A stretch of 36,105 nucleotides of DNA from Tannerella sp. (lineage in GTDB: Bacteria > Bacteroidota > Bacteroidia > Bacteroidales > Tannerellaceae): contig JAISXP010000059.1 of NCBI GenBank assembly GCA_031270465.1, positions 1-36,105 on the forward strand, read 5' to 3'. The position numbers were made by a program, and so were the translations under genes. Below, piece by piece: positions 17,735 to 36,105 of this stretch (position 1 is its first letter; each line of letters starts with the position of its first letter). The notes below the pieces were generated by a model. That model was given only the letters and a program-made list of their open reading frames with translations. It did not search any database and was not told where the DNA came from.

Positions 17735-18694
17735 CTACTTCTTCGTCTTCATCAACGAGATGACAACCCCCAGCGCCAAAATGGAAAATGTGAAAACGAG
17801 CGATTGCTCCGACCTGATTTCAAGCCCGAAATGAGGCGAAAAGATCTTGCAGCCGATAAAGACAAGGATGATTGCCAGGGCATGCTTCAGGTACACAAAG
17901 CGATTGACGGCGGCGGCCAGCAGAAAGTACAGCGAACGCAATCCCAGTATGGCAAAAATATTGCTGGTGTAAATCACGAACGTGTCCTGCGTAATGAGAA
18001 ATATGGCGGGAATGCTGTCGATGGCAAAAATCACATCCATGATTTCTATCAGCAACAGAGCCAGAAACAGGGGAGTGATATAATTCTTTTCATCTTTCTT
18101 TACAAAAAAGTGCTCGCCGGACAGGTCGGGCGTGATCCGGAACCTTTGTGACAGAAAACGGAACAGTTTGCCCTCTTTAATATCGGATTTTTCTTTTTCG
18201 GGAAACAGGAATTTGATTCCCGTGAATATCAGAAATATCGAAAACAGGTACAAAATCCAGTGAAACCTGGCAACCAGTGCCGCCCCGATAAATATCATGA
18301 CCGCACGCATGACGACCGCGCCCATAATACCCCAGAACAGTACGCCGTGCTGGTATCTGACCGGTATGGTCAGAGACGTGAATATAAGCGAAATCACGAA
18401 AATGTTATCCATCGAAAGGCTAAGCTCGACCAGATAGCCGGTATAAAACAGCATACCGGTCTCGCTGCCTTTTTCGTAAATGACAAACAGCCCGAAAAGA
18501 AGCGCTATCAAAACATAGCTGGCGCAGATTATGAGGATTTTCCTGATTTTCTGCTCTTCGTCCTTCCTGTGAAAGACGAACAGATCCAGATAAAGCAAAA
18601 CGGAGACAACCGTTACGAAAATCACCCACATCCATCCCTGAGGTAAAACCGGATGTCCGGCTTCGAGCAGCGTTACAGTTTCCATACAAGTCAT
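17735..18694 (-). CDS. TerC family integral membrane protein
   Basis: 'VELSLSMDNIFVISLIFTSLTIPVRYQHGVLFWGIMGAVVMRA', 'LLIEIMDVIFAIDSIPAIFLITQDTFVIYTSNIFAILGLRSLYF'; start refined to the ATG overlapping the upstream stop (ATGA at 18694-18691). Confidence 0.92.
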   Translation of the reverse strand: MTCMETVTLLEAGHPVLPQGWMWVIFVTVVSVLLYLDLFVFHRKDEEQKIRKILIICASYVLIALLFGLFVIYEKGSETGMLFYTGYLVELSLSMDNIFVISLIFTSLTIPVRYQHGVLFWGIMGAVVMRAVMIFIGAALVARFHWILYLFSIFLIFTGIKFLFPEKEKSDIKEGKLFRFLSQRFRITPDLSGEHFFVKKDEKNYITPLFLALLLIEIMDVIFAIDSIPAIFLITQDTFVIYTSNIFAILGLRSLYFLLAAAVNRFVYLKHALAIILVFIGCKIFSPHFGLEIRSEQSLVFTFSILALGVVISLMKTKK

Positions 18695-19572
18695 TTCAGT
18701 TTTTCCGTTATTTCTTTCATCCATTCGGCGGCATCCTGCACCGTCTCGCCGTTTTCGTTGTATGCCCCGACGATGTACTGTCCTTTCCATACGGCAGGGA
18801 TATCGCCATTGTACCGGTCTTTGACGACAATGCTGCCTTCGTCCGTGACAGCCTGTTGCCCGGTAAATTCAGCGTAACGGTCCAATACCTTGCGGGCGCC
18901 GTCTTTCGTTTTGCCGTCGACGACAAAAAGCAGGAACGTCTGTCCTTCGTGCCCGTATCTTGCCGAATAGACGGACTTCAAAAACTCGTGGCCGATAAAA
19001 CCTTTCGTCGTGTAGGATTCCGACCATGCGCGTTTCCCTTTCGCCGGAAACAGTTTTGCCACGGGCGGATATGTGGCGCCGGCATCGATCCTGTCCGACA
19101 GTCGCCGGCCAATCGCACGGAGAGTTTCTTCCGCATCGCCGGCGCTGCTGCTCCACATCTTCACGTAAATACATCCTGCGAAGAAGAACAGGTTTTGAGC
19201 ATCGCCCTGTGCCTCGCCTCCGATGTCGAAATGCGCCAGTTCGTCCGAACGTTCCGATGCGTACATGCCGAAAGCATCTTCGGGCGTGGCATGGCGATAC
19301 GCCTGTATTGTGATGTAATCATCGCCTTTCCTGTACTCCAGAGAAGTCATTTCCTCAAAATTGTTCTCTATGAACAGGGGCGCCGCGCCGTTGATGCGGT
19401 CGAAAAGATTGTCGGGGTTGAAGACTTCCGTTTCGTCCGACAGCGTCCATCCCGGGAAATCGGCCAGCCACGATTTCAACTGTCCGGGCGTCTGGGCGAC
19501 GAGCAGTTGAACGGACATCAGCACAAGAATGGCAAAGATTGTCTGTCTGAAATATTTCATCCGTATATACAT
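18691..19572 (-). CDS. DUF6599-like secreted protein
   Basis: Signal-like N-terminus 'MKYFRQTIFAILVLMSVQLLVAQ'; 'NLFDRINGAAPLFIENNFEEMTSLEYRKGDDYITIQAYRHATPEDAFGMYASER'. Confidence 0.65.
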   Translation of the reverse strand: MYIRMKYFRQTIFAILVLMSVQLLVAQTPGQLKSWLADFPGWTLSDETEVFNPDNLFDRINGAAPLFIENNFEEMTSLEYRKGDDYITIQAYRHATPEDAFGMYASERSDELAHFDIGGEAQGDAQNLFFFAGCIYVKMWSSSAGDAEETLRAIGRRLSDRIDAGATYPPVAKLFPAKGKRAWSESYTTKGFIGHEFLKSVYSARYGHEGQTFLLFVVDGKTKDGARKVLDRYAEFTGQQAVTDEGSIVVKDRYNGDIPAVWKGQYIVGAYNENGETVQDAAEWMKEITEKLK

Positions 19573-22772: not shown

Positions 22773-25700
22773 TTATTCGTTATTCATTAACAACTGTTCC
22801 ATTTCTTCCTTTGTCAGTTTATTTTTCTCGAGGAGGCGTTCGACGAGCCGGTCGATTGCAGGTTTCTGTTCACGAAGGGTTTCGATGGCCAGGGCAAGTT
22901 CGCGGCGGATGATGGCGGAGATGCGTTCGGCGATTTTGCCGGCGAGAGGGCCGCGGGTAGCTTCGTCGTCGGAGAGGAAGACGGGGCCGGTTTCGTCGTC
23001 CATGCCGTAGGAGCAGATCATGGCGCGGGCGATGCGGGTAGCGCTTTGCAGGTCGCCTGATGCGCCGCTCGAGATGCCGTCGTCGTCGCCGTAGTAGACG
23101 ATTTCGGCCGCCCGTCCGCCGAGTGCGGTACGGATGCGGGCGAGGAGTTCGTCGCGCGTCTTGAGCGGAGTGTCTTCGTCGGCCGCATGTTCCATATATC
23201 CGCCGTGGCTGCCGCGGGCAACGATGGTGAGATAGGCGGGCGTACGTCCGGCGAGGAAACAGAGGCAGGCGTGTCCCGCTTCGTGCCGTGCGACGCGCTG
23301 GAGATAATCCTTTCCCCAGTCACGCTTTTCACCGTGCCGGTTGAGTTCGAAGGCCTCTTCGAGCGTGTCGTCGTCGAGTGGCTGTTCCTTTTTAGCAGCC
23401 ATGCGGAAGGCGAGTTCGAGCACCGTTTCCAGACCGGCAAGGCTGTATCCGGCAGAGCGTTCGGCCAGGCGCTGAATCATTGATTCGGCGACTTTGTTCG
23501 GTCGCTTGCCGAGCATGAGTGTCAGGTATCGCGCCCGGTCGTCTCTGTCGGGCAGGTCTACGAGGATTTTGCGGTCGAAGCGGCGAGCGAGGGCGGGATC
23601 GATCGTGCCGGTGGCGCGCCGTCCTTCCTCGATGTCGAAATTGGTGGCGGCGAGCACGAAAACAGGGCGCTTGAGATCGACGGTGAATCCGTCCATTTCG
23701 GTGAGCAGTGCGTTGAGCGCCATTTCTTCGCCGTGTCCGGTGTGTCCTGCACCGCGCGTGCGGCCTATGGCGTCGATTTCGTCGATGAAGATGATGGCCG
23801 GGGCGTACCGGCGTGCACGGGCGAAAAGATTGCGTACGGCTTCGGGGCCGCTGCCCTGCCATTTGGTTACGAAGCTGCTTGCGGCGGCGGGGATAAAGGC
23901 GACGTCGGACTCGCCGGCCATGGCGCGCGCAAGCATCGTCTTGCCGGTGCCCGGCGGGCCGTAGAGCAGTACCCCTTTGGGTAGCCGGTAGCCCGATGCA
24001 GCAGTTTTTTTCGGATCCTTGAGGAAATTGATGAAGTATTGCAGTTCGCTTTTTGCGTCGGCGGCGCCGATGACGTCGTCGAAGCGGGCGTCGGGCTTTT
24101 CGATTTCATTGAGCACATCACGGCTGTCGTCGGCCGCAACGATGCGGCGGAGTGAAAATTCGCGCAGGCGGATGATTGCCTGCGTCCTGTCGGGCGAGAG
24201 AATGGGCGCGGTTTCGAACGAGAGCGCCTTGCGCTGCATGGCCAGGGCTGCGGCAGCGCCCTGCAGGCAGGCTTGCGCGCAGATGTTTTTGATTTCTTCG
24301 GCAATAATGCCACTGTCGCCCTCCGACAGCGCAAGTTTGCCTCTGGCTCCGGCGCGGACGAAAGCTGTAAGCAATTCTTCGTCGATACCAAATCTATCCG
24401 ATTCAAGCAGATAGACAGGCATGTCGGGCAGGCGTTCGCGCAGGGTCTTGAAGAAGTTGCGCGAGGTTTTCAGCGACGATGCGCCGGGAGGTATGTAATT
24501 GAATGCGCCAATGGTAGCGAGCGGATTCGGCAGGGCTACGCCGGGTTCGGCCACGGTAGCCAGCGGGTCGAGTTTCTTTCGCGTCTCTCCCGACAGTTCC
24601 ACGAGCACGAGATGAATGTCTTTTTCGCTCAACAGTTTCAGAGCTTCGTCCGTCTCGGTGGAATGATGAATTTCGACATCCGGCAATGCGTCGCGCAATT
24701 TTTCGAGGCACGCTTCGTCGCCGAAGAAAAGGATTTCCGGCCGTTCCGGAGTTGAGAACAGCGGTTTTACGTCGTCCGGCAGGCTATCGGTTTCCACGCC
24801 GAAACGAATGGTCTGCATCCGTTCGAGTGCCTGTTCGAGGCCTGTATCCCAGAGGCGGAAAAGTTTGAAGAGTTCGTTTTTGAAAAACAGTTCAGTGCGT
24901 GCACAAAGAGTACGCGCATCGACCTGCCCTCCTTCGGCAAAAAGGAGTACGGAGGCAAGCAGTTCACCGCCTTCTATCCTGATGCCGTACTGTTTTTCAA
25001 AGAGCGCGCAAAGGCGTTGAAATTCGGTTGAACTGATTTTCTCGAGATGATGCGCCTGCAGATGATTGAACATCATGGGATAGCCGGTAGCCAGTCGCGA
25101 GCAGATGGCAGCAGGGAAATAAGGTTTGCCCGTCTGCGGATGAGTATCGGTTTCGAGGGCGCCGAGTATGGCTTGACGCGACAGTCCGGCGGCGCCGGAG
25201 CGGAAATCTCCCTCGTAGAACTGGCGTCCGGCGTTGGTCGTAAAGATGATGACGGTGTCGCGGAAGGAGATGTTCTCGTCGAGAAAATCGTCGTGCAGGA
25301 TGCCGGCATCCAGAATTTGCAGGAAGAGTTGGATAGTGTTCAGATGCGCCTTTTCGATTTCGTCGAAGAGGAGTATGCTGTGCGGATTTTTCTTGACGAA
25401 GCCGGTGAGCAAGCCGGGTTTGGCATCCTTGTAGCTGGCGTTGAATCCTATCAGGTTGGAATGTGCCTGGTGGTCGGCGAAGTTACTCATGTCGAATCGC
25501 CTGAAGGGGGTGCCGAGCACTTCGGCCGCCTGTTCGGCGAGGAAGGTTTTCCCTACGCCCGGAGGTCCGGCGAAGACGAAGATGGCGCGCGGGCGGCGGC
25601 GTTTTTCGTCGGCAGCAGCCAGCACTTCGGCATTGAAAATGCCTTCGGCAAAGGCATGGACGGCGTGGTCTTGCCCGTGTATCTTGTCGAGCAGAGCGTA

Positions 25701-26234
25701 TCGCATCCTGCGGATACGTCCGGTCAGCGAGGGCAGGAAGGAGACGCCTTCGATCTGGGGTGTGGCCGGCTTTTCGGGTGTTGGCTTTTCGGGTGTTGGC
25801 TTTTCGGCCGGTTTTCCGAGAAGGAGAATGGTTTCGAGCATGGGTGTCGGCTCTTCGAGCAAGGCGGACAGCAAGTGTGCGGCCGACAGGGTTTCGCCTG
25901 CGGCTTTCGCGACAGCTTTCGCGTGCAGACCTTCGACCAGCGTTTTTCCGTTGCCCGAAGGCTTTTCGCCGGAGAGAATCCTGCGCAGTTGCGAGCGTAC
26001 CTTGCGCGAATCTATCCCGGCCGCTTTCAGCAGGGTTACCACCTGGCGGATGTCGGCATCGGTCTGTTCGCGATAGCGGGAGTTGGGCGCGATGTCGTCG
26101 GCAGTGATTTCCGACAGTTTGAGCAGTCCCAGAAACAGATGTTCGGGATGCAGTTCCATGGTCAGGGCGACGGCTTCCATCGTGGCGCGTATCCTGACGA
26201 ATGACAGGGATCTTGTTTCTTCAAGTTTTTCCAT
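22773..26234 (-). CDS. Clp_N/ClpB-type AAA+ - receiver-like - FtsH-type AAA+ - M41 metalloprotease fusion
   Basis: 1153 aa continuous frame: Clp_N-like 'AAHLLSALLEEPTPMLETIL'; Walker A1 'GPPGVGKT' (aa 223-230), Walker B1 'SILLFDEIEKAH'; REC-like aa ~499-640; Walker A2 'GPPGTGKT' (aa 759-766), Walker B2 'IIFIDEIDAIGRTRG'; HEAGH (aa 984-988; DNA 23271-23285) and 'SSGASGDLQSATRIAR' (third Zn ligand region of FtsH). Confidence 0.88.
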   Translation of the reverse strand: MEKLEETRSLSFVRIRATMEAVALTMELHPEHLFLGLLKLSEITADDIAPNSRYREQTDADIRQVVTLLKAAGIDSRKVRSQLRRILSGEKPSGNGKTLVEGLHAKAVAKAAGETLSAAHLLSALLEEPTPMLETILLLGKPAEKPTPEKPTPEKPATPQIEGVSFLPSLTGRIRRMRYALLDKIHGQDHAVHAFAEGIFNAEVLAAADEKRRRPRAIFVFAGPPGVGKTFLAEQAAEVLGTPFRRFDMSNFADHQAHSNLIGFNASYKDAKPGLLTGFVKKNPHSILLFDEIEKAHLNTIQLFLQILDAGILHDDFLDENISFRDTVIIFTTNAGRQFYEGDFRSGAAGLSRQAILGALETDTHPQTGKPYFPAAICSRLATGYPMMFNHLQAHHLEKISSTEFQRLCALFEKQYGIRIEGGELLASVLLFAEGGQVDARTLCARTELFFKNELFKLFRLWDTGLEQALERMQTIRFGVETDSLPDDVKPLFSTPERPEILFFGDEACLEKLRDALPDVEIHHSTETDEALKLLSEKDIHLVLVELSGETRKKLDPLATVAEPGVALPNPLATIGAFNYIPPGASSLKTSRNFFKTLRERLPDMPVYLLESDRFGIDEELLTAFVRAGARGKLALSEGDSGIIAEEIKNICAQACLQGAAAALAMQRKALSFETAPILSPDRTQAIIRLREFSLRRIVAADDSRDVLNEIEKPDARFDDVIGAADAKSELQYFINFLKDPKKTAASGYRLPKGVLLYGPPGTGKTMLARAMAGESDVAFIPAAASSFVTKWQGSGPEAVRNLFARARRYAPAIIFIDEIDAIGRTRGAGHTGHGEEMALNALLTEMDGFTVDLKRPVFVLAATNFDIEEGRRATGTIDPALARRFDRKILVDLPDRDDRARYLTLMLGKRPNKVAESMIQRLAERSAGYSLAGLETVLELAFRMAAKKEQPLDDDTLEEAFELNRHGEKRDWGKDYLQRVARHEAGHACLCFLAGRTPAYLTIVARGSHGGYMEHAADEDTPLKTRDELLARIRTALGGRAAEIVYYGDDDGISSGASGDLQSATRIARAMICSYGMDDETGPVFLSDDEATRGPLAGKIAERISAIIRRELALAIETLREQKPAIDRLVERLLEKNKLTKEEMEQLLMNNE
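25771..25807. repeat. 15-bp tandem repeat encoding a PTPEK linker
   Basis: TTTTCGGGTGTTGGC x2 plus partial third; encodes KPTPEKPTPEKP between Clp_N and first AAA domain. Confidence 0.85.
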
Positions 26235-26259: not shown

Positions 26260-28905
26260 TTAATGAACGGTACGGTACATTTCTAAAACCAGTCCGAATA
26301 ATGCATGAACAATTTCCATTGTAGACGGAATCCTGCCCAAAGGAATTGCTTCAGCAATCAATGATTTGCCGCGTTCGATCAGCAGTTTTGCCTGTTCTCT
26401 GTCTTTCCATCTATAAGAATCAAAATTTTCATTAAACATTATTACATACTGTTCGCCACCTGTTGGCGTCATTTCAAGCACAAACTTCTGTTCGACGATT
26501 TTATAGGTAACTTCCTTTGTCTTTCTAATATTTTTCTCGCGACTGATTGTTTCTTTATTCCCGGGAAAATCATTGCATGTTGCTTCTGCTGCAGCCAGAT
26601 ACTTTTCATCATATCCGGGCATTCTGTTGATTCCTTTGCTTTTGATTATATATATCATCGTGTCCAGTTCGTAAAAGGCCTCCGTCATTTCCTTTTCTGC
26701 TTTCCGGTATCTCATCTGTGCTTTGACAGGGTACAATTCGAACAGTTGCCTGCGGAGGTTGTTGTGAATTTCCAGTCTTTTGAAGAGGTCGCTTTCCCCG
26801 GCTTTCAAACTTTTTTCGAGTTCGGAAAGTCGTTCGCTGACTTTGGCCGCGGTTTGCCTGTCTGCTTCCGGGATTTCGCCGGTAGCATTTATTTCATGTA
26901 TGTCCTGTCTGGCTGCCGAGATTTTTTTTAAAATATCTTCTTCCGAAGGAACTTCGGCCTGCTTGATTTCAATGTCCAGTTCTTTGGTATAATCCAGTAA
27001 CGGGAAAAAAGCTTTGAAGTGCATGGTTTGCGCCTTGTCTACCTTTATGGTAATCTCCACATCGCTGTTTTGGGGTAATGTATACGGAATGTCTTCGCCG
27101 GTTATGATCACTTCGCGGATCAGGTCGTTCAATTCTGGGTCAGCGCCTACGGCATTACAGTCTCCCTGATAGATGCCGATACAAAACCAGTCATCTTTTT
27201 CTCCTTTACGTATTTTACACGTGGTCTTCAGACCTTTGACGACACCCGTAGCCGGCAGATTTCTGTTTTTTTCCAGTCCCTTGACGGGAAAGAAACCAAG
27301 GCCATCCTTGTTTTCGAAATACTTGGCAATGCCGACATGATAAGATAAAACCTGCGTTTTGGGAAAGTCGATACTTTGAATGATATTGAATTGATCGGGT
27401 TCGCAGTCCAGCCGGTTTCCTTTTTCGTCGAATACCTGTATCTCGAACGAATTGGAACGATTTTCAAGCAGAAGGACTTCAATGAGGGTTGCTTTCCTGT
27501 CGCTGATGCGCTTCAATCCGCTTGACCAGGCTTCGTCGACACGCCTAATGCCGACAAAGATCTCGTTTGGAAAGCGTTCGGTTGATTTTTCTTTCAACGC
27601 CTTGATGGAAACCAGTGCATTCTTTTCCATGCCTGTCGCTTCATATTTGACGTCCAGTCGGAGTTTATCTGCGTAAGGTGTCGAACCGCCATCGCCGCCT
27701 CCCTGCTGTACGGTTTTGGGGTCTTCAGCAACAGCGGGGATATCCACATCCACAGTAGAAGCGTAGATCGCAGCTCCCTGTGCTACGACTGTCATCGGAT
27801 CTTTGGACGTGTCTACGTGCTCGGTGATTTGTTCGCGCAACATGCACCGCAGGATGGGCGAATGGGTGGGTCCGCCCACCGGAATAAGCGCGTCGAGGTC
27901 GGCGCCCTGCAGGTTGTTGCGCTTCAGCAGTCCTTTCGCAATGTCGATGGCTTTCTGAAAGATGGGCGAGAGGACGCGCTCCATGTCTTTCTGCGTGACG
28001 GTTACGTCTACTTCGGGAGCTTCGCCTTCTTCGTCCTCAAAGGGCAGGTCGCCCAGATCGGTAAGGATATTGTGCTTGTCCCTGAACGACATTTGAATCT
28101 TGGCTTCTTCGGCCAGCCGCTTGACGCCGTTTCGCAAAATCTCTCTCCTGTCGGGGTCGTTAAGAATACCTTCGATGACAAAATTTTTCTGGAGGTACGG
28201 CAGGATAATCTGGTCGACGATGGCTTCGTCGAGGTTTTTGCCGCCGAGCCAGTTATCTCCGTCGGTATCTTTGACGGACAGGATTCCTTCTTCGGCTTTT
28301 ACGAGTGTGGCGTCGAAGGTGCCGTCGCCAAAGTCGAATACGAGCCAGTATCCGTCTTTTTTTTCGGCGTCCAGGCCGTAAGCAGTTGCCGCAGCAACCG
28401 GTTCCTGAAGCAAAACGACCTGCTTGAATCCGGCCAGTTTGGCTGCCTTGATGGTTGCTTCGTTTTGTGGACTGAGGAATTTGGCGGGCACGGTGATTAC
28501 TATCGACGAGAGATTTTCGTCCAGTACCAGTGATTTCAGTTTTTTCAGTACTTCGGCCGACAGTTCTTCCGAAGGAATTTCCCTGTTCATGTGGCTGCTT
28601 CGATAGGTATGTGTGGTACCCATTGTGCGTTTAAATTCGATATATGAATTGGTTTCGCCCTTTTTGAAATCCTTCATCGCCCTCATTACATTCAAATCCT
28701 TCATCGCCCTCGTTGTGTCGTTTTTCATCACATTCATTGCCGGGTCGCCGACCTGCACGACCTGTTTTTTGTTGAAATATACGCAGGAAGGCACGATATC
28801 CTTCAGTATGTCGGATTTTATGATTCTGGGGACGCCGTTTTCCATCCGGGCGATGGCTGAATTGGTTGTGCCCAGGTCGATGCCGTAGTCAATTTTCGTT
28901 CTCAT
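26260..28905 (-). CDS. Hsp70-family protein, paralogue B (DnaK-like NBD and SBD with novel C-terminal helical domain; G-to-D in phosphate-2 loop)
   Basis: 'DYGIDLGTTNSAIA', 'EPVAAATAYGLDAEKKDGYWLVFDFGDGTFDATLV', 'IPVGGPTHSPILR'; 881 aa; C-terminus unrelated to DnaK lid in sequence. Confidence 0.92.
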   Translation of the reverse strand: MRTKIDYGIDLGTTNSAIARMENGVPRIIKSDILKDIVPSCVYFNKKQVVQVGDPAMNVMKNDTTRAMKDLNVMRAMKDFKKGETNSYIEFKRTMGTTHTYRSSHMNREIPSEELSAEVLKKLKSLVLDENLSSIVITVPAKFLSPQNEATIKAAKLAGFKQVVLLQEPVAAATAYGLDAEKKDGYWLVFDFGDGTFDATLVKAEEGILSVKDTDGDNWLGGKNLDEAIVDQIILPYLQKNFVIEGILNDPDRREILRNGVKRLAEEAKIQMSFRDKHNILTDLGDLPFEDEEGEAPEVDVTVTQKDMERVLSPIFQKAIDIAKGLLKRNNLQGADLDALIPVGGPTHSPILRCMLREQITEHVDTSKDPMTVVAQGAAIYASTVDVDIPAVAEDPKTVQQGGGDGGSTPYADKLRLDVKYEATGMEKNALVSIKALKEKSTERFPNEIFVGIRRVDEAWSSGLKRISDRKATLIEVLLLENRSNSFEIQVFDEKGNRLDCEPDQFNIIQSIDFPKTQVLSYHVGIAKYFENKDGLGFFPVKGLEKNRNLPATGVVKGLKTTCKIRKGEKDDWFCIGIYQGDCNAVGADPELNDLIREVIITGEDIPYTLPQNSDVEITIKVDKAQTMHFKAFFPLLDYTKELDIEIKQAEVPSEEDILKKISAARQDIHEINATGEIPEADRQTAAKVSERLSELEKSLKAGESDLFKRLEIHNNLRRQLFELYPVKAQMRYRKAEKEMTEAFYELDTMIYIIKSKGINRMPGYDEKYLAAAEATCNDFPGNKETISREKNIRKTKEVTYKIVEQKFVLEMTPTGGEQYVIMFNENFDSYRWKDREQAKLLIERGKSLIAEAIPLGRIPSTMEIVHALFGLVLEMYRTVH
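28667..28720. repeat. 27-bp in-frame tandem duplication in Hsp70 B
   Basis: AAATCCTTCATCGCCCTC at 28667-28684 and 28694-28711 (period 27); encodes AMKDLNVMRAMKDF; Hsp70 A has only one unit. Confidence 0.8.
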
Positions 28906-28988: not shown

Positions 28989-31565
28989 CTATTTCAAAGT
29001 GCCTCCACCGGGTGTTTCATCGTCAGGAAGCATTTGATGCAATGCCAAGACAATAGCCCGAACTTCGGAAGTTCTACCCAAAGCGACCAGTTGATTGCCT
29101 TTTTCAATCAACTGTTTTGCCATTGCAGGATTAGACCAGTGGAGTGAGTGGAAGTTTTGGGCATAGTGATTCAGGAACTGCACAAACATCAGGCCTCCGG
29201 TTACTGTATCGACAAGTTGAAAGTGCAATCCTTTCATTTCCTGCGTCAATTTCTTTGCTTCCTTCACATCTTTAGCAGGGATGATTTGCCTCATCTTTCT
29301 GTTAAAGTCATCCACCATGGCTTTCAATTTGCCCATATCCAGGTTATTTGCGCTGTCGCCAATTTTTTCTATCAACTCATTTAATTCAAGACTGGCGTCT
29401 TTCATTTCCCTTTCTGCTTCCGGCCATTTATCCTCCGAACTGCCGGCGGCACCTAATTTGAGCATTTGCTTGCGGAGACTGTTTTGAATGTTCATTTTCC
29501 CGTCGGCGCTGCCTTTTTCGTTTTCCAGTTTTCCTTCGAGTCTGTCAAGTTCTTCGACGACTTCGGCTGCTCCTGCCTTTATTGCCTTCGCTTTTGCATC
29601 GGCGATTTGTTTTGAAAGGTCTGTTACCGAAGGCATCGCGGTTTGCTTGATTTCAATGTCCAGTTCTTCGGCATAATCCAGTGACGGGAAATAAGCTTTG
29701 AAGTGCATGGATTGCGATTCGTCTATCTTGATGGTAATATCCACGTTGCTGTTTTCCGGCAACAAATTGGGAATGGTATCGCCGGTTATGATTACTTCGC
29801 AGATCAGGTCGTTCAGCGCCGGGTCGGTGCCTTTGGCATTGTAGTCGCCCTGATAGATTGGAATGCGTATCCTGTCCTGCGAATTGCGGGGTCTGATTTT
29901 TTTTCGGGTTTTGAGGCCGTTTACCACACCCGTAGCCGGTAAGGTCTTGCTTTTTTCCAATCCTTTGACGGGAAAGAACAGGTCGGCTTCCTCGTCTTCG
30001 AAATACTTGGCAATGCCGACATGATAAGATAAAACCTGCATTTTGGTCACGCCGCCGATACCTTGAATGATATTGAACTGATCGGGTTCGCAGCTCAGCC
30101 TGTTTCCTTCTTCGTCGAATACCTGTATATCGAACGAGTTGGAACGATTTTCAAGCAGAAGGACTTCTACAAGGGATGCTTTCCTGTCGCTGATGCGCTT
30201 CAAACCGCTTGACCAGGCTTCGTCGGCACGCTTGATGTCGACAAAGATCTCGTTTGGAAAGTGTCCGGTTGATTTTTCTCTCAGCGCCTTGATGGAAACC
30301 AGTTCATTCTTTTCCACGCTTGTTGCTTCATATTTGACGTCCAGTCGGAGTTTATCCGCGTGAGGTGTCGAACCGCTATCGCCGCCTCCCTGCTGTCCGG
30401 TTTTGGGGTCTTCAGCAACAGCGGGGATATCCACATCCACAGTAGAAGCGTAGAGCGCAGCTCCCTGTGCTACGACTGTCATCGGATCTTTGGACGTGTC
30501 TACGTGCTCGGTGATTTGTTCGCGCAACATGCGCCGCAGGATGGGCGAATGGGTGGGTCCGCCCACCGGAATAAGCGCGTCGAGGTCGGCGCCCCGCAGG
30601 TTGTTGCGCTTCAGCAGTCCTTTCGCAATGTCGATGGCTTTCTGAAAGATGGGCGAGAGGACGCGCTCCATGTCTTTCTGCGTGACGGTTACGTCTACTT
30701 CGGGAGTTTCGCCGTATTCGTCCTCAAAGGGCAGGTCGCCCAGATCGGTAAGGATATTGTGCGCGTCCTTGAACGACATTTGAATCTTGGCTTCTTCGGC
30801 CAGCCGCTTGACGCCGTTTCGCAAAATCTCTCTCCTGTCGGGGTCGTTAAGAATACCCTCGATGGCAAAATTTTTCTGGAGGTGCGGCAGGATAATCTGG
30901 TCGACGATGGCTTCGTCGAGGTTTTTGCCGCCGAGCCAGTTATCTCCGTCGGTATCTTTGACGGACAGGATTCCTTCTTCGGCTTTTACGAGTGCGGCGT
31001 CGAAGGTGCCGCCGCCAAAGTCGAATACGAGCCAGTATCCGTCTTTTTTTTCGGCATCCAGGCCGTAAGCAGTTGCCGCAGCAACCGGTTCCTGAAGCAA
31101 AACGACCTGCTTGAATCCGGCCAGTTTGGCTGCCTGGATGGTTGCTTCGTTTTGTGGACTGAGGAATTTGGCGGGCACGGTGATTACTATCGACGAGAGG
31201 TTTTCGTCCAGTACCAGTGATTTCAGTTTTTTCAGTACTTCGGCCGACAGTTCTTCCGAAGGAAATTCCCTGTTCATGTACCTGCTCCGATAGGTATGTG
31301 TGGTACCCATTGTGCGTTTAAATTCGATATATGTATTGGTTTCGCCCTTTAGGAAAATCTTCAATATCCTCGTTATGTCGTTTTTCATCGCATTCACTGC
31401 CGGGTCGCCGACCAGCACGGCCTGTTTTTTGTTGAAATGTACGCAGGAAGGCACGGTATCCTTCAGCGTGTCGGATTTTATGATTCTGGGGACGCCTCTT
31501 TCCATCCGGGCGATGGCTGAATTGGTTGTGCCCAGGTCGATGCCGTAGTCAATTTTAATTCTCAT
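28989..31565 (-). CDS. Hsp70-family protein, paralogue A (DnaK-like NBD and SBD with novel C-terminal helical domain)
   Basis: 858 aa; 'DYGIDLGTTNSAIA', 'LVFDFGGGTFDAALV', 'IPVGGPTHSPILRRMLREQITEHV'; near-identical to B over N-terminal ~2/3. Confidence 0.93.
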   Translation of the reverse strand: MRIKIDYGIDLGTTNSAIARMERGVPRIIKSDTLKDTVPSCVHFNKKQAVLVGDPAVNAMKNDITRILKIFLKGETNTYIEFKRTMGTTHTYRSRYMNREFPSEELSAEVLKKLKSLVLDENLSSIVITVPAKFLSPQNEATIQAAKLAGFKQVVLLQEPVAAATAYGLDAEKKDGYWLVFDFGGGTFDAALVKAEEGILSVKDTDGDNWLGGKNLDEAIVDQIILPHLQKNFAIEGILNDPDRREILRNGVKRLAEEAKIQMSFKDAHNILTDLGDLPFEDEYGETPEVDVTVTQKDMERVLSPIFQKAIDIAKGLLKRNNLRGADLDALIPVGGPTHSPILRRMLREQITEHVDTSKDPMTVVAQGAALYASTVDVDIPAVAEDPKTGQQGGGDSGSTPHADKLRLDVKYEATSVEKNELVSIKALREKSTGHFPNEIFVDIKRADEAWSSGLKRISDRKASLVEVLLLENRSNSFDIQVFDEEGNRLSCEPDQFNIIQGIGGVTKMQVLSYHVGIAKYFEDEEADLFFPVKGLEKSKTLPATGVVNGLKTRKKIRPRNSQDRIRIPIYQGDYNAKGTDPALNDLICEVIITGDTIPNLLPENSNVDITIKIDESQSMHFKAYFPSLDYAEELDIEIKQTAMPSVTDLSKQIADAKAKAIKAGAAEVVEELDRLEGKLENEKGSADGKMNIQNSLRKQMLKLGAAGSSEDKWPEAEREMKDASLELNELIEKIGDSANNLDMGKLKAMVDDFNRKMRQIIPAKDVKEAKKLTQEMKGLHFQLVDTVTGGLMFVQFLNHYAQNFHSLHWSNPAMAKQLIEKGNQLVALGRTSEVRAIVLALHQMLPDDETPGGGTLK

Positions 31566-32524
31566 GATTGTACTGTATTTGTAATATTATTGTTGTTAAT
31601 GGATGAATCCTGACTGTCGTCGTCCTGCGGACCTACGGATACTTCGATTTGTGCGGACTGAATCATTTTGCCGTTGTAGTTGACTTGCGGGACTATCACT
31701 TTCGTGATGACTTCGGCGCCGGCCTCGAGGTTCTCGTCGGGGATGGAGTTGACTACGGTTACTTTCATGCCTTCGTGGAATTCTTTTCCGAGCAGTTGGG
31801 GCACTTCGTATCCGTTGGCGGCAAGGTTGTCTTTCAATGTGCCTACCGAGCGTTTCAACTGTTTCAGGCCTTTGGTGCCTTCGCTCATCAGGCTGATGTT
31901 TCGTTCGATCACGTTGATTTCGCTTGCCACCTTCAGCGCCAGCGAATGGTCGATTTCGGGTTCGGGCGTATCCGATTCAACCGGTACCTGATTTTCCAGC
32001 TTTTTGACCAGAAGCTGTATTTCCCGGTCAAACTCGTTCACCAGTTTTTCTTCGATTTCGTCTTTCGTTTTGCCCACCTGTTCGATGATGGCGGACTTGT
32101 CGGTTTTCTGCCGCCTGCTCAGGAACCAGTAGACCAGCACGGAGAGGATGATGGCCATGAGGAGGACAATCACGACGTAGAGGGTGGTGTTGCTTACCGA
32201 GCGGCCGACTTCCTGAAACCGCTGGTTGGCGGAGGCTTCGGTGGTCGAGATTTTTACGCCGAGCTGGTCTGCCGTTTCGCGGATGGCCTGGCTGTTGCTT
32301 TGTGTCGACTGCCGGAGTGTCTCGATGGTTTCGCCGGCGGCCTTGAGCCGGGTCTGCAGGGCGGTTACTTCGCCGCGCAGTTTTCGCGTTTCCGTACGGA
32401 GCGTCTGCAGTTCGCTTTTTACGGTCTGCAACTCCTTTTTCAGTTCATCCGTTGCCGGATTGCCGTTCTGTGCCGACGCTGCTGCGCCTGCCAGAAGGAA
32501 TAGAGCCAATACAATTTTTTTCAT
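31562..32524 (-). CDS. membrane-anchored GrpE-like protein: signal peptide, periplasmic coiled coil, TM, cytosolic GrpE-like head
   Basis: Signal 'MKKIVLALFLLAGAAASAQ'; coiled coil aa ~25-105; TM 'LYVVIVLLMAIILSVLVYWFL'; C-terminal 'LKRSVGTLKDNLAANGYEVPQLLGKEFHEGMKVTVVNSIPDENLEAGAEVITKVIVPQVNYNGKMIQSAQIEVSVG' resembles GrpE 'GxEPFDPNLHEAVxxVPxxDxxxGTVxxVLQKGYxLNGRVLRPAxVxVS'; ATGA overlap with Hsp70 A. Confidence 0.7.
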   Translation of the reverse strand: MKKIVLALFLLAGAAASAQNGNPATDELKKELQTVKSELQTLRTETRKLRGEVTALQTRLKAAGETIETLRQSTQSNSQAIRETADQLGVKISTTEASANQRFQEVGRSVSNTTLYVVIVLLMAIILSVLVYWFLSRRQKTDKSAIIEQVGKTKDEIEEKLVNEFDREIQLLVKKLENQVPVESDTPEPEIDHSLALKVASEINVIERNISLMSEGTKGLKQLKRSVGTLKDNLAANGYEVPQLLGKEFHEGMKVTVVNSIPDENLEAGAEVITKVIVPQVNYNGKMIQSAQIEVSVGPQDDDSQDSSINNNNITNTVQS

Positions 32525-32572: not shown

Positions 32573-34996
32573 TCATCTTTCTTTCATTGTCAACATGCCG
32601 AGGGCCGACAGCAGCCAGAAGAATCCGTACACGATGAGCGTGCCCGATACCCACCTGGGCATCGGCAGCCAGTCGAAATACCAGATCAGGAACAGCGCCA
32701 GTTCGGGCAGAAAGAGTATCAGATGCTGCGAGTGCCAGAAGCGCGACATCTTCGAGCGGTTCAGCCGCCGCGTGTTGCACAGCAGCATCATCCGTATGTT
32801 GTCGTATGCCCAGAAGAATCCGTAGATGCTGAATATGGCGTGCCATACGGAGTTGACGGAGAGATTGCCCAGGTCGATGATGCAGACGGCGATGAGCGGC
32901 AGGAGCAGCGAGCGGAAGAAATAGGTCCAGTACATCACTCCGGGCGAGCCGTTGAGGCGAAACATGGTCGATGCCAGGTGGCCTCCGGGATTCATGGCTT
33001 TCAGTTGCTGGATTTTGAACATTGCATAAAACAGTATGCCGAAGGCAAGCACCCAGAAGCTTATGCTGTCGAGAAGCGAGAGGGCTGTTTTTTCCTGCAC
33101 GATCATGTAGGTATTTTTATATATATAGAAAAGCCACATGTTCGCAAGGAAAGTGATGAATACGCCGAAGGCGGGCATTCGCCGCTTCACGAGGCTGGCG
33201 ATGCCGTAGGATGTGCAGAAGAACCAGAACATGACGAGGGAGTACGGCAGGCTGCGGACAAATTTGCCGACGGCGGCGGGGTCGGACACGACATGCCACC
33301 GGTATTCGAGCAGCGCGAACAGGGCGACGGGTATGATCGTGGTCCAGAAGAAGTATTTCACGGCAGCCCATGCCGTACCGCCGCGAAACGTCAGTCCGTT
33401 GATTGTCGTACGGCGCTTTGGCGCGGGCTGTCTTTTTCCGGCCGGCTTTGGTGCGGGGGGTTTTTGGCCGGAAGCTTTTTGTTCGAAAACCGTTTTCGCG
33501 GGTGTCCTCTGTACGGGTGCCCTCTGTACGGGCTGTTCACTGTTTCCGCTCTGCTTTCCGCCCGACAGCGCTTCCCTGTTTTTTTCCAGTCGGGCGCGAA
33601 CTTCGGAGTTGAGTTCCATTTTTTCGATTTCTGCCATCAGCGTGTGCGCCTCGTTTATCTTCTTTATAAGGACTGTCACGTTCGGACGGTTTTCAATCAT
33701 GCTGTTCACGTCGGCAATCGTCATGTCCAGCGCCTTGTCTGCAATGAGGGAGCTTAGTGTCCGGTAATGCCCTCCGGCGCCCGAACTGCCGCCCATGTTC
33801 GCCAGCGTTTTTCTGCTGTCTTCGAATCTTTTCCTGAGCGCGCTCCCGACGACGAGCGACTGTCCCTTGAGGAGGAGGCTTTCGGCGACATCTTTTTTCG
33901 ATTTGCCCGTCGCGGGCGAGTTGTCGTCAGCGTTTTTCAGCATTTTGAGGAGCGGCTTTGTTTCGTTCAGCAGTTCTTGTGCGTCTTCTACGGTTTGGTT
34001 TCTTTCTTTTTTCAGCATCTGTGCGAGCATGGCCAGCGCCATCATTGTTTCGAGGTTTTCCTGCTGGCCTTCGCTGTCTGCCTTGCTGTTGTTGTAGTAG
34101 TCGATGGAGCACAGGAGGATTTCTTCGGCGACGCTGTCGGTGGCCGACGTGTATTTGAGGTCGTTGGCGCCGGTGAGGTTTTTCAGCGTCGCGAGGTCGC
34201 CCGACGTGTCGTCGTAGAGTTTGCTGCCGATGCTGTCGGCTCTGGCGGGATTATCCTTTCGTTTCCGTGCGGCGTCTTCTGCCTTGCGTTCGATTTCGGC
34301 AGCAAATCCTTTGGCAAATTCTTCCATGAAGTCGCTTTTGGCGGCAAAGCTGAGCGTCGACAGCGCTTTTATCGCTCTGGCCGTGGTGATGTTTCGTTTG
34401 TTTGCGCTCTCGATGTCTTTCATGAGCGTGCGCAAGAAGGAGAGTTCGAGTTCGGCTGCCGTCACTCTGAAGGTTTTGTCGGTTGTCCGTGTGACGAAGT
34501 CGCGGAGGCAGTCGCTTTCGAGGAATTTGATTTTGAGCGCAAGCGCCTGTTCGAAAGCGGCGACGGCGCCCGACTTCATCTGCTGGCTGCGGCAGAGGAG
34601 CAGAGTGGAGAGGTTGTGGAAGGCGGAACTGTTGCGCGGCGTGACCGTGCCGGAGGCGGTGAGTTTCGTCCATATTTCGGCGGCGTAGTCGGGGTCGTTG
34701 TCTGCCAGGGCGTCGAAGGCAGGCTCGTCCGTGATGTCGTTGCCGGTATAGAACCAGAAGAGAGCGGCATTCATGCGGTCGCTGTCGAGGTCGAGGCGCG
34801 AGGCGGCTTCGCTTACCGCGGTGTCGGTGCGCGAGAGTGTGCCGAGCGCCGGGAAGGCACAGTCTTCTCCCCGTGGCGGCTCCTGACCTGCTTCCAGGTA
34901 CATTAGCAGCCGGCTTATCTTCGCATTGCGTTCTCTTGCGGTTGCCCCGGCAAGCAGACCGATTACGCGGTACGGGTTGTTCAGAATGCTTTTCAT
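32573..34996 (-). CDS. large polytopic membrane protein with degenerate J-domain-like N-terminus, helical-repeat middle and ~8 C-terminal TM helices
   Basis: 807 aa; N-terminus 'LNNPYRVIGLLAGATARERNAKISRLLMYLEAGQ' (J-like NPYxVLGL... without HPD), Pro-rich linker 'PVQRAPVQRTPAKTVFEQKASGQKPPAPKPAGKRQPAPKRR', then hydrophobic helices such as 'YFFWTTIIPVALFALLEY' and 'HLILFLPELALFLIWYFDWL'. Confidence 0.7.
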   Translation of the reverse strand: MKSILNNPYRVIGLLAGATARERNAKISRLLMYLEAGQEPPRGEDCAFPALGTLSRTDTAVSEAASRLDLDSDRMNAALFWFYTGNDITDEPAFDALADNDPDYAAEIWTKLTASGTVTPRNSSAFHNLSTLLLCRSQQMKSGAVAAFEQALALKIKFLESDCLRDFVTRTTDKTFRVTAAELELSFLRTLMKDIESANKRNITTARAIKALSTLSFAAKSDFMEEFAKGFAAEIERKAEDAARKRKDNPARADSIGSKLYDDTSGDLATLKNLTGANDLKYTSATDSVAEEILLCSIDYYNNSKADSEGQQENLETMMALAMLAQMLKKERNQTVEDAQELLNETKPLLKMLKNADDNSPATGKSKKDVAESLLLKGQSLVVGSALRKRFEDSRKTLANMGGSSGAGGHYRTLSSLIADKALDMTIADVNSMIENRPNVTVLIKKINEAHTLMAEIEKMELNSEVRARLEKNREALSGGKQSGNSEQPVQRAPVQRTPAKTVFEQKASGQKPPAPKPAGKRQPAPKRRTTINGLTFRGGTAWAAVKYFFWTTIIPVALFALLEYRWHVVSDPAAVGKFVRSLPYSLVMFWFFCTSYGIASLVKRRMPAFGVFITFLANMWLFYIYKNTYMIVQEKTALSLLDSISFWVLAFGILFYAMFKIQQLKAMNPGGHLASTMFRLNGSPGVMYWTYFFRSLLLPLIAVCIIDLGNLSVNSVWHAIFSIYGFFWAYDNIRMMLLCNTRRLNRSKMSRFWHSQHLILFLPELALFLIWYFDWLPMPRWVSGTLIVYGFFWLLSALGMLTMKER
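33500..33535. repeat. 15-bp tandem repeat in the Pro-rich linker of the 807-aa membrane protein
   Basis: GGGTGTCCTCTGTAC GGGTGCCCTCTGTAC GGGCTG; encodes PVQRAPVQRTP. Confidence 0.8.
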
Positions 34997-35325: not shown

Positions 35326-36105
35326 CTATGATGTGCCGTGGTACGCAAGGAGTATTTTTACCGTTTCGGTATGGCCATTCCTGGCCGCTTTTTTCAGTGC
35401 GGTTTCGCCATATTCGTCACTGATATTTACATCGGCGCCATGCGCAAGAAGGACCTTTACCGTTTCGGTATGGCCATTCTCTGACGCCTTCATCAGTGCA
35501 GTATCGCCATCGTAAATATAATCTGTGCCGGTACTCTCGTTGATATAATCGCCATAGTGTTCGTTCACGGCGTTTATATCCGCACCGTGCGCAAGGAGAA
35601 CTTTTACTGTTTCGGTATGGCCGTCTTCGGCTGCCACTATCAGCGGGGTATTGTTATACCATTCACTGTCTCTTGCATTCACATCGACGCCGTGTGCAAG
35701 GAGAGCTTTTACGGTTTCGACGAAGCCTTCTTTGGCTGCCAGTATCAGCGCTCTTTCGTCTCCTTCCGAGTTCATGTTTTCGACGTTTACATCAACGCCC
35801 TGCGCAAGGAGAAATTCGATCATATCGCCGCTGAGTACATCGTCCGCATCGTATATTTCCTTTATATCATTTATATTGGCGCCGTGTGCAAGGAGCAATT
35901 TCATCATTTCGACACAGTTTCCACAGTCTTCACAGTATGCATACATCAGTGCGGTGTTGCCCTCTTCGTCACGTGCATTTATATCGGCGCCATGCTCAAG
36001 GAGTATCTTTACCGTTTCGAGCCTCCAGGAACAGGATGCATACATCAGTGCGGTTTCGCCATATTCGTCACTGATATTTACATCGGCGCCATGCTCAAGG
36101 AGTAT
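35326..36105 (-). CDS. ankyrin-repeat protein, partial (5' end beyond window)
   Basis: Repeated 'TETVKVLLAHGADVNxxD...GxTALMKAxENGH'; frame stays open to 36105 (ILLEHGADVNISDEYGETALMYASCSWRL upstream of the listed ORF start). Confidence 0.92.
   Translation of the reverse strand: MLLEHGADVNISDEYGETALMYASCSWRLETVKILLEHGADINARDEEGNTALMYAYCEDCGNCVEMMKLLLAHGANINDIKEIYDADDVLSGDMIEFLLAQGVDVNVENMNSEGDERALILAAKEGFVETVKALLAHGVDVNARDSEWYNNTPLIVAAEDGHTETVKVLLAHGADINAVNEHYGDYINESTGTDYIYDGDTALMKASENGHTETVKVLLAHGADVNISDEYGETALKKAARNGHTETVKILLAYHGTS
35395..36094. repeat. long near-identical DNA repeats within ankyrin gene
   Basis: Identical 49 bp CAGTGCGGTTTCGCCATATTCGTCACTGATATTTACATCGGCGCCATGC at 35395-35443 and 36046-36094; also 24-bp identity 35357-35380 / 35456-35479 (99-bp = 33-aa period). 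Confidence 0.9.

Follow-up and report, generated by a model that had tools for sequence, protein, structure and literature searches.

Could bacteria fix the nucleotide-exchange step of an Hsp70 chaperone in a membrane? The question is raised by a gene, here called GrpE-TM, found on contig JAISXP010000059.1 of a Tannerella sp. (assembly GCA_031270465.1), of which positions 1 to 36,105, hereafter the window, were analysed. Judged from its sequence and from a model of its fold, the product of this gene is probably a membrane-anchored, highly divergent GrpE, and a putative exchange factor working specifically with the Hsp70 of the neighbouring gene in the same operon. According to a review from 2015, GrpE is the only Hsp70 exchange factor encoded in eubacterial genomes (PMC4753570). 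Our literature search, in which subscription papers were thinly covered, found neither a membrane-spanning GrpE nor an operon of this kind.

Domain layout of GrpE-TM

The gene lies on the minus strand and its parts are the following.

31562..32524, minus strand: GrpE-TM gene, 320 amino acids (aa), with signal peptide, periplasmic coil, transmembrane (TM) helix and predicted cytosolic GrpE-like head; from the open reading frame (ORF) and its translation
32468..32524, minus strand: signal-peptide-like N-terminus, residues 1-19 (AXA before Q); from the sequence itself, with an N-terminal hydrophobic segment in most relatives
32201..32449, minus strand: predicted periplasmic coiled coil, residues 26-108; its heptad score is 4.35, shuffled sequences giving 1.80 +/- 0.33 (0/300)
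32117..32185, minus strand: TM helix, residues 114-136, then RRQKTDK; from hydropathy
31994..32098, minus strand: predicted long cytosolic stalk helix, residues 143-177, of low to moderate confidence; from the AlphaFold model
31631..31951, minus strand: GrpE-like head of two helices and a beta-wing, residues 192-298; from the family alignment, hhalign, AlphaFold and Foldseek

The N-terminal segment, MKKIVLALFLLAGAAASA followed by Q, resembles a signal peptide and ends in ASA before the Q, as judged by eye. The coil is free of proline, and its heptad hydrophobicity was matched in none of the 300 shuffles; it is followed by the single strong hydropathy peak of the protein, with the positively charged RRQKTDK on its inner flank, and by a helical linker which joins this flank to the conserved head. 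The preliminary description of this DNA, made from the sequence alone, had proposed exactly such an arrangement, that is an N-terminal signal peptide, a coiled coil of about 80 aa and one TM helix, which it placed at 32114-32191. The stretch on which it had focused, 31631-31912 from NVIERNISLM to IEVSVG, was located inside the ORF, and the conserved domain begins slightly before it, at DHSLALK.

Of the 29 sequences scored, 26 have a strong internal TM peak with positive charges on the side of the head; the other three are a fragment (L010), a form reduced to the head (L012) and L077. The last (E 0.006) was dropped as a member of the family, having the coil, the TM helix and the helix pattern, and lacking the beta-wing. 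The predicted signal peptide, coil and TM helix are conserved features of the family, and the head is placed on the inner, cytosolic side by the positive-inside rule. Moreover, a SPOR-like segment precedes the TM helix in L074 (E 0.0074, under the Pfam cut-off), and a similar one can be recognised by eye in L076; as SPOR domains work in the periplasm, an N-terminus on the outer side fits the family. These two relatives (L074, 458-7968; L076, 8173-15700) form a SPOR-like sub-family with no Hsp70 nearby.

Relationship of the head to GrpE

The evidence for GrpE comes from profiles and from structure. A family profile of 16 members was compared by hhalign with a second profile, built from canonical GrpE proteins of genomes in the window's phylum, giving a score of 37.9 (P 1.7e-5) over 99 columns, which cover nearly the whole domain and span both the helix pair and the beta-wing of the head; the reversed GrpE alignment scored 12.2 and the best of 150 column shuffles 15.7. 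When whole genomes were searched with the family profile, it recovered its own members and, weakly, canonical GrpE in four genomes, at E 0.005 in G128 and at E 5.8e-5 to 6.8e-4 in the three others, which were verified as GrpE (E 2.7e-52 to 6.7e-48). The AlphaFold model, for which the family alignment was the input (pLDDT 73.5), contains helices at 6-40, 57-75 and 83-99 and four strands (H-H-H-E-E-E-E); here, as in GrpE (PF01025; E. coli 1DKG, Geobacillus 4ANI, human GRPEL1 9BLS), a long helix comes first, then two bundle helices and the C-terminal beta-wing. With this model, the nine best Foldseek matches in the PDB were all GrpE or GRPEL1 (best E 6.1e-4), the first non-GrpE folds appearing only from E 0.31. 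The GrpE-like C-terminal head of the preliminary description, and the similarity to the GrpE beta domain by which it was to be judged, were both recovered.

On the other hand, several results weigh against this assignment. GrpE was not reported by single-sequence scans of the whole protein with Pfam or NCBIfam, nor by a Pfam scan of the cytosolic part; these libraries and PADLOC returned only coiled-coil noise for GrpE-TM, and phmmer with the full protein found nothing useful in the PDB. The family profile alone was not significant against the PDB (1dkg_A, E 0.71), the head model has a pTM of 0.41, and the TM-scores of the GrpE matches were 0.28-0.41 with a large root-mean-square deviation, which we infer to result from a free angle between stalk and wing. 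To the same side belongs the position aligned to E. coli GrpE Arg183, which we take to be a DnaK contact in the wing: it is Lys in most members and Val, Ser, Glu or Arg in others.

The coiled-coil noise given by the full protein would suit an ordinary coiled-coil membrane protein of the FtsL/DivIC type that looks like GrpE by chance, as would the NCBI annotation of a plasmid-borne relative, L053, as 'septum formation initiator'. The similarity, however, extends into the non-coil wing, above the shuffled controls, and the independent structure search puts GrpE in the first nine places; since the wing itself matches GrpE, we reject a chance coiled-coil resemblance, which we consider extremely improbable. 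The head of GrpE-TM is, by sequence profile and predicted fold, related to GrpE. Because the curated sequence model missed the protein, membership of PF01025 as defined is not claimed, and GrpE-TM is filed as a GrpE-fold variant.

The adjoining Hsp70 and the operon

GrpE-TM is flanked in the window by the following genes.

32573..34996, minus strand: NPYR protein, 807 aa, J-domain-like at the N-terminus and lacking HPD, with hydrophobic helices at the C-terminal end; from alignment and hhalign, fold search negative
28989..31565, minus strand: Hsp70 copy 1, 858 aa, overlapping the end of GrpE-TM by 4 bases at its start; ATPase motifs intact and lobe-IIB loop long
26260..28905, minus strand: Hsp70 copy 2, 881 aa, sharing 70% identity with copy 1, its phosphate-2 motif reading GDGTFD; from library scans and alignment
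22773..26234, minus strand: single polypeptide of 1153 aa that joins a Clp-type AAA, an FtsH AAA and an M41 protease; HEAGH and two Walker A motifs present

Outside the window we counted 27 credible relatives, of which 26 are informative for gene order, L078 being cut by the end of its contig. An Hsp70 gene lies directly downstream on the same strand in 22 of the 26, at a spacing of -20 to 103 bases, and the adjoining Hsp70s keep the long lobe-IIB loop wherever the comparison is possible. As canonical GrpE genes may do, GrpE-TM thus adjoins an Hsp70 gene. Given that nearly all relatives have an Hsp70 gene in the next position, a tethered exchange factor for the operon Hsp70 is the simplest reading. 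The preliminary description had proposed membrane-tethered exchange on the Hsp70s of the operon: the GrpE-related head, its predicted inner-side position and the neighbouring Hsp70 agree with it, and its functional part is a reasonable expectation from sequence. Control by a periplasmic sensor coil, which it also suggested, would be a guess.

Four relatives speak against this reading, as no Hsp70 adjoins GrpE-TM in L013, L074, L075 and L076. Moreover, L074 adjoins a GldL-like gene and two GldM-like genes, and the neighbours of L076 are of similar size. The GrpE-like fold could then serve a partner other than Hsp70, for example an envelope motor, the proximity to Hsp70 reflecting co-transfer only. 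Yet this would have to account for the 22 relatives with Hsp70 directly downstream and for L012, in which the GrpE domain is reduced to a stand-alone soluble head of 110 aa and nevertheless lies between the NPYR gene and Hsp70; we regard such a partner as very improbable.

A second alternative accepts the descent from GrpE and makes of the head a static tether or adaptor, which keeps Hsp70 at the membrane while exchange is left to the cell's canonical GrpE. In fact, the head is strongly divergent, with no Pfam match, its last hairpin carries a near-invariant QxNYxGKMIQ in place of the canonical GYxLxxRVIR, and the genome of the window encodes a separate canonical GrpE. However, the beta-wing, the part acting in exchange, is the most conserved stretch of the family, and Hsp70 copy 1 has its phosphate-1, phosphate-2 and adenosine motifs and a IIB loop of at least DnaK length. 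We hold the static tether to be unlikely, and prefer an exchange factor; as the genome has its own canonical GrpE, GrpE-TM would be an extra, specialised one. Nor is the GrpE dependence of the operon Hsp70 to be assumed, because the specialised E. coli Hsp70s HscA and HscC work independently of GrpE (PMC4753570).

In Hsp70 copy 2, GDGTFD replaces GGGTFD, so that it is possibly a regulatory or impaired paralogue, or the change is a sequencing error.

The common gene order in the relatives is NPYR, GrpE-TM, Hsp70, kinase-AAA and TerB. The window belongs to a sub-type, shared with L002, in which tandem Hsp70s are followed by a fusion chain of about 1150 residues, a Clp-type N-terminus and AAA joined to an FtsH AAA and M41 protease; the fusions of the window and of L002 (5635-9081) are 75% identical and keep HExxH and both Walker A motifs intact. 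Distances between the heads correlate with those between the Hsp70 nucleotide-binding domains (NBD) (r 0.86) and between the NPYR proteins (r 0.72), neither value being reached in 2000 permutations, which shows, at the level of sequence distances, joint inheritance as a unit rather than binding.

The first 40 residues of the NPYR protein align with J-domain helices I-II (hhalign 27.5, 32 columns, P 1.1e-4), the best of 100 shuffles scoring 16.9 and unrelated cross-controls 8.9 and 9.7. The HPD motif between helices II and III is missing from every aligned member, and a fold search with a low-confidence model of the N-terminus (pLDDT 61) gave no J-domain or other meaningful match; the protein is therefore termed J-like, and not a J-protein. 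Hydrophobic helices are seen by eye at the C-terminus of many members. At L069:1674-5672 there are tandem NPYR genes with near-identical starts and differing C-terminal ends.

Other genes near these operons were also observed. In a close relative (L001:1978-5541), the gene immediately upstream of NPYR encodes a kinase-TPR-WD40 protein, which perhaps substitutes for kinase-AAA. The window contains a TerC-family gene (17735-18787) about 4 kb from the operon, the operon of the relatives usually containing TerB, and, upstream of the operon, a gene for an ankyrin-repeat protein (35326-36105) which runs past the window end.

Distribution, defence genes and a proposed Hsp70 cycle

Strong matches were obtained in 6 of 396 genomes of the window's phylum and in 9 of 198 genomes of its order, its own genome included. 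The search of genome contigs yielded thirteen GrpE-TM relatives and the plasmid search one, L053, a Haliscomenobacter plasmid that carries all five genes of the operon, while phage records and viral contigs yielded zero. Some relatives are in contigs labelled Hydrogenedentota, Clostridia and Succinivibrio, and the Clostridia bin may be misassigned.

The recurrent operon, with its J-like protein lacking HPD, kinase-AAA and TerB, often situated among defence genes, is the larger finding. In L071 it lies inside a BREX locus, between brxA-brxB-brxC and pglX, and on the L053 plasmid it is near brxL and pglZ; other relatives have as neighbours TOTE conflict genes (L070), a NACHT protein (L068), a type I methyltransferase (L066), a UvrD-type helicase with a NERD helicase (L005) or a phage integrase (L067). 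These are named loci, considered without a background rate for such proximity. Around the operon of the window itself no known defence genes were seen, the neighbours being mostly housekeeping or transport genes, and the PADLOC library used holds no specific model for NPYR, GrpE-TM, Hsp70 or TerB. From the gene neighbourhoods of the relatives, the operon perhaps has a role in anti-phage defence.

Pfam detects canonical GrpE, a soluble protein, whereas GrpE-TM has a signal peptide, a periplasmic coil, a TM helix and another wing motif, and is an additional copy in a genome already holding the canonical one. A membrane-fixed Hsp70 exchange factor exists in Snl1, a yeast membrane-anchored BAG-domain protein of the endoplasmic reticulum and nuclear envelope, which differs in that the BAG fold is unrelated to GrpE. 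The GAP1-N2 GTPase conflict systems, which include HSP70, GrpE and DnaJ-fused proteins, show the same recruitment of Hsp70, exchange factor and J-type set into a conflict-type operon, and the sole GrpE passage there does not mention a membrane-spanning form (PMC7159879); unlike them, the operon studied here was found with no GTPase or FNIII protein, its partners being kinase-AAA and TerB, or Clp-FtsH. The work on bNACHT25 shows that a host chaperone component, DnaJ, can be needed for phage sensing (PMC12169576), and there it is the housekeeping DnaJ, whereas the GrpE-TM operon would provide a dedicated membrane chaperone set.

We propose that the GrpE-TM head would dimerise on its stalk, wedge into the Hsp70 NBD and open lobe IIB, so that ADP leaves and the client is released, exchange being confined to the inner face of the inner membrane. 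The membrane-associated J-like NPYR protein would hand over clients, and the AAA motor encoded downstream, kinase-AAA in most relatives and the Clp-FtsH protease in the window, would unfold or degrade those released. More tentatively, the periplasmic coil might anchor or gate the stalk, and the system might serve envelope surveillance or phage defence. Canonical GrpE opens the NBD with its wing, and is turned off when heat unfolds its stalk (PMC4753570); a stalk tied to a TM helix and a periplasmic coil could conceivably answer to the state of the envelope rather than to heat.

In its widest form, the operon may be a system for defence or envelope surveillance, patchily distributed and so far undescribed, which rebuilds the full Hsp70 cycle at the inner membrane from an HPD-less J-like protein, a coil-gated TM GrpE, a dedicated Hsp70 and kinase-AAA with TerB or a Clp-FtsH effector, and turns a transmembrane signal into chaperone cycling; we give this reading somewhat less than an even chance. 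GrpE-TM would represent a second, membrane-spanning GrpE lineage, present alongside the canonical GrpE of the same genomes, linked to an Hsp70 of its own and met repeatedly in the neighbourhood of defence genes. If this is true, bacteria could confine Hsp70 cycling to the membrane, perhaps coupled to periplasmic events, and the operon is a candidate defence system open to testing.
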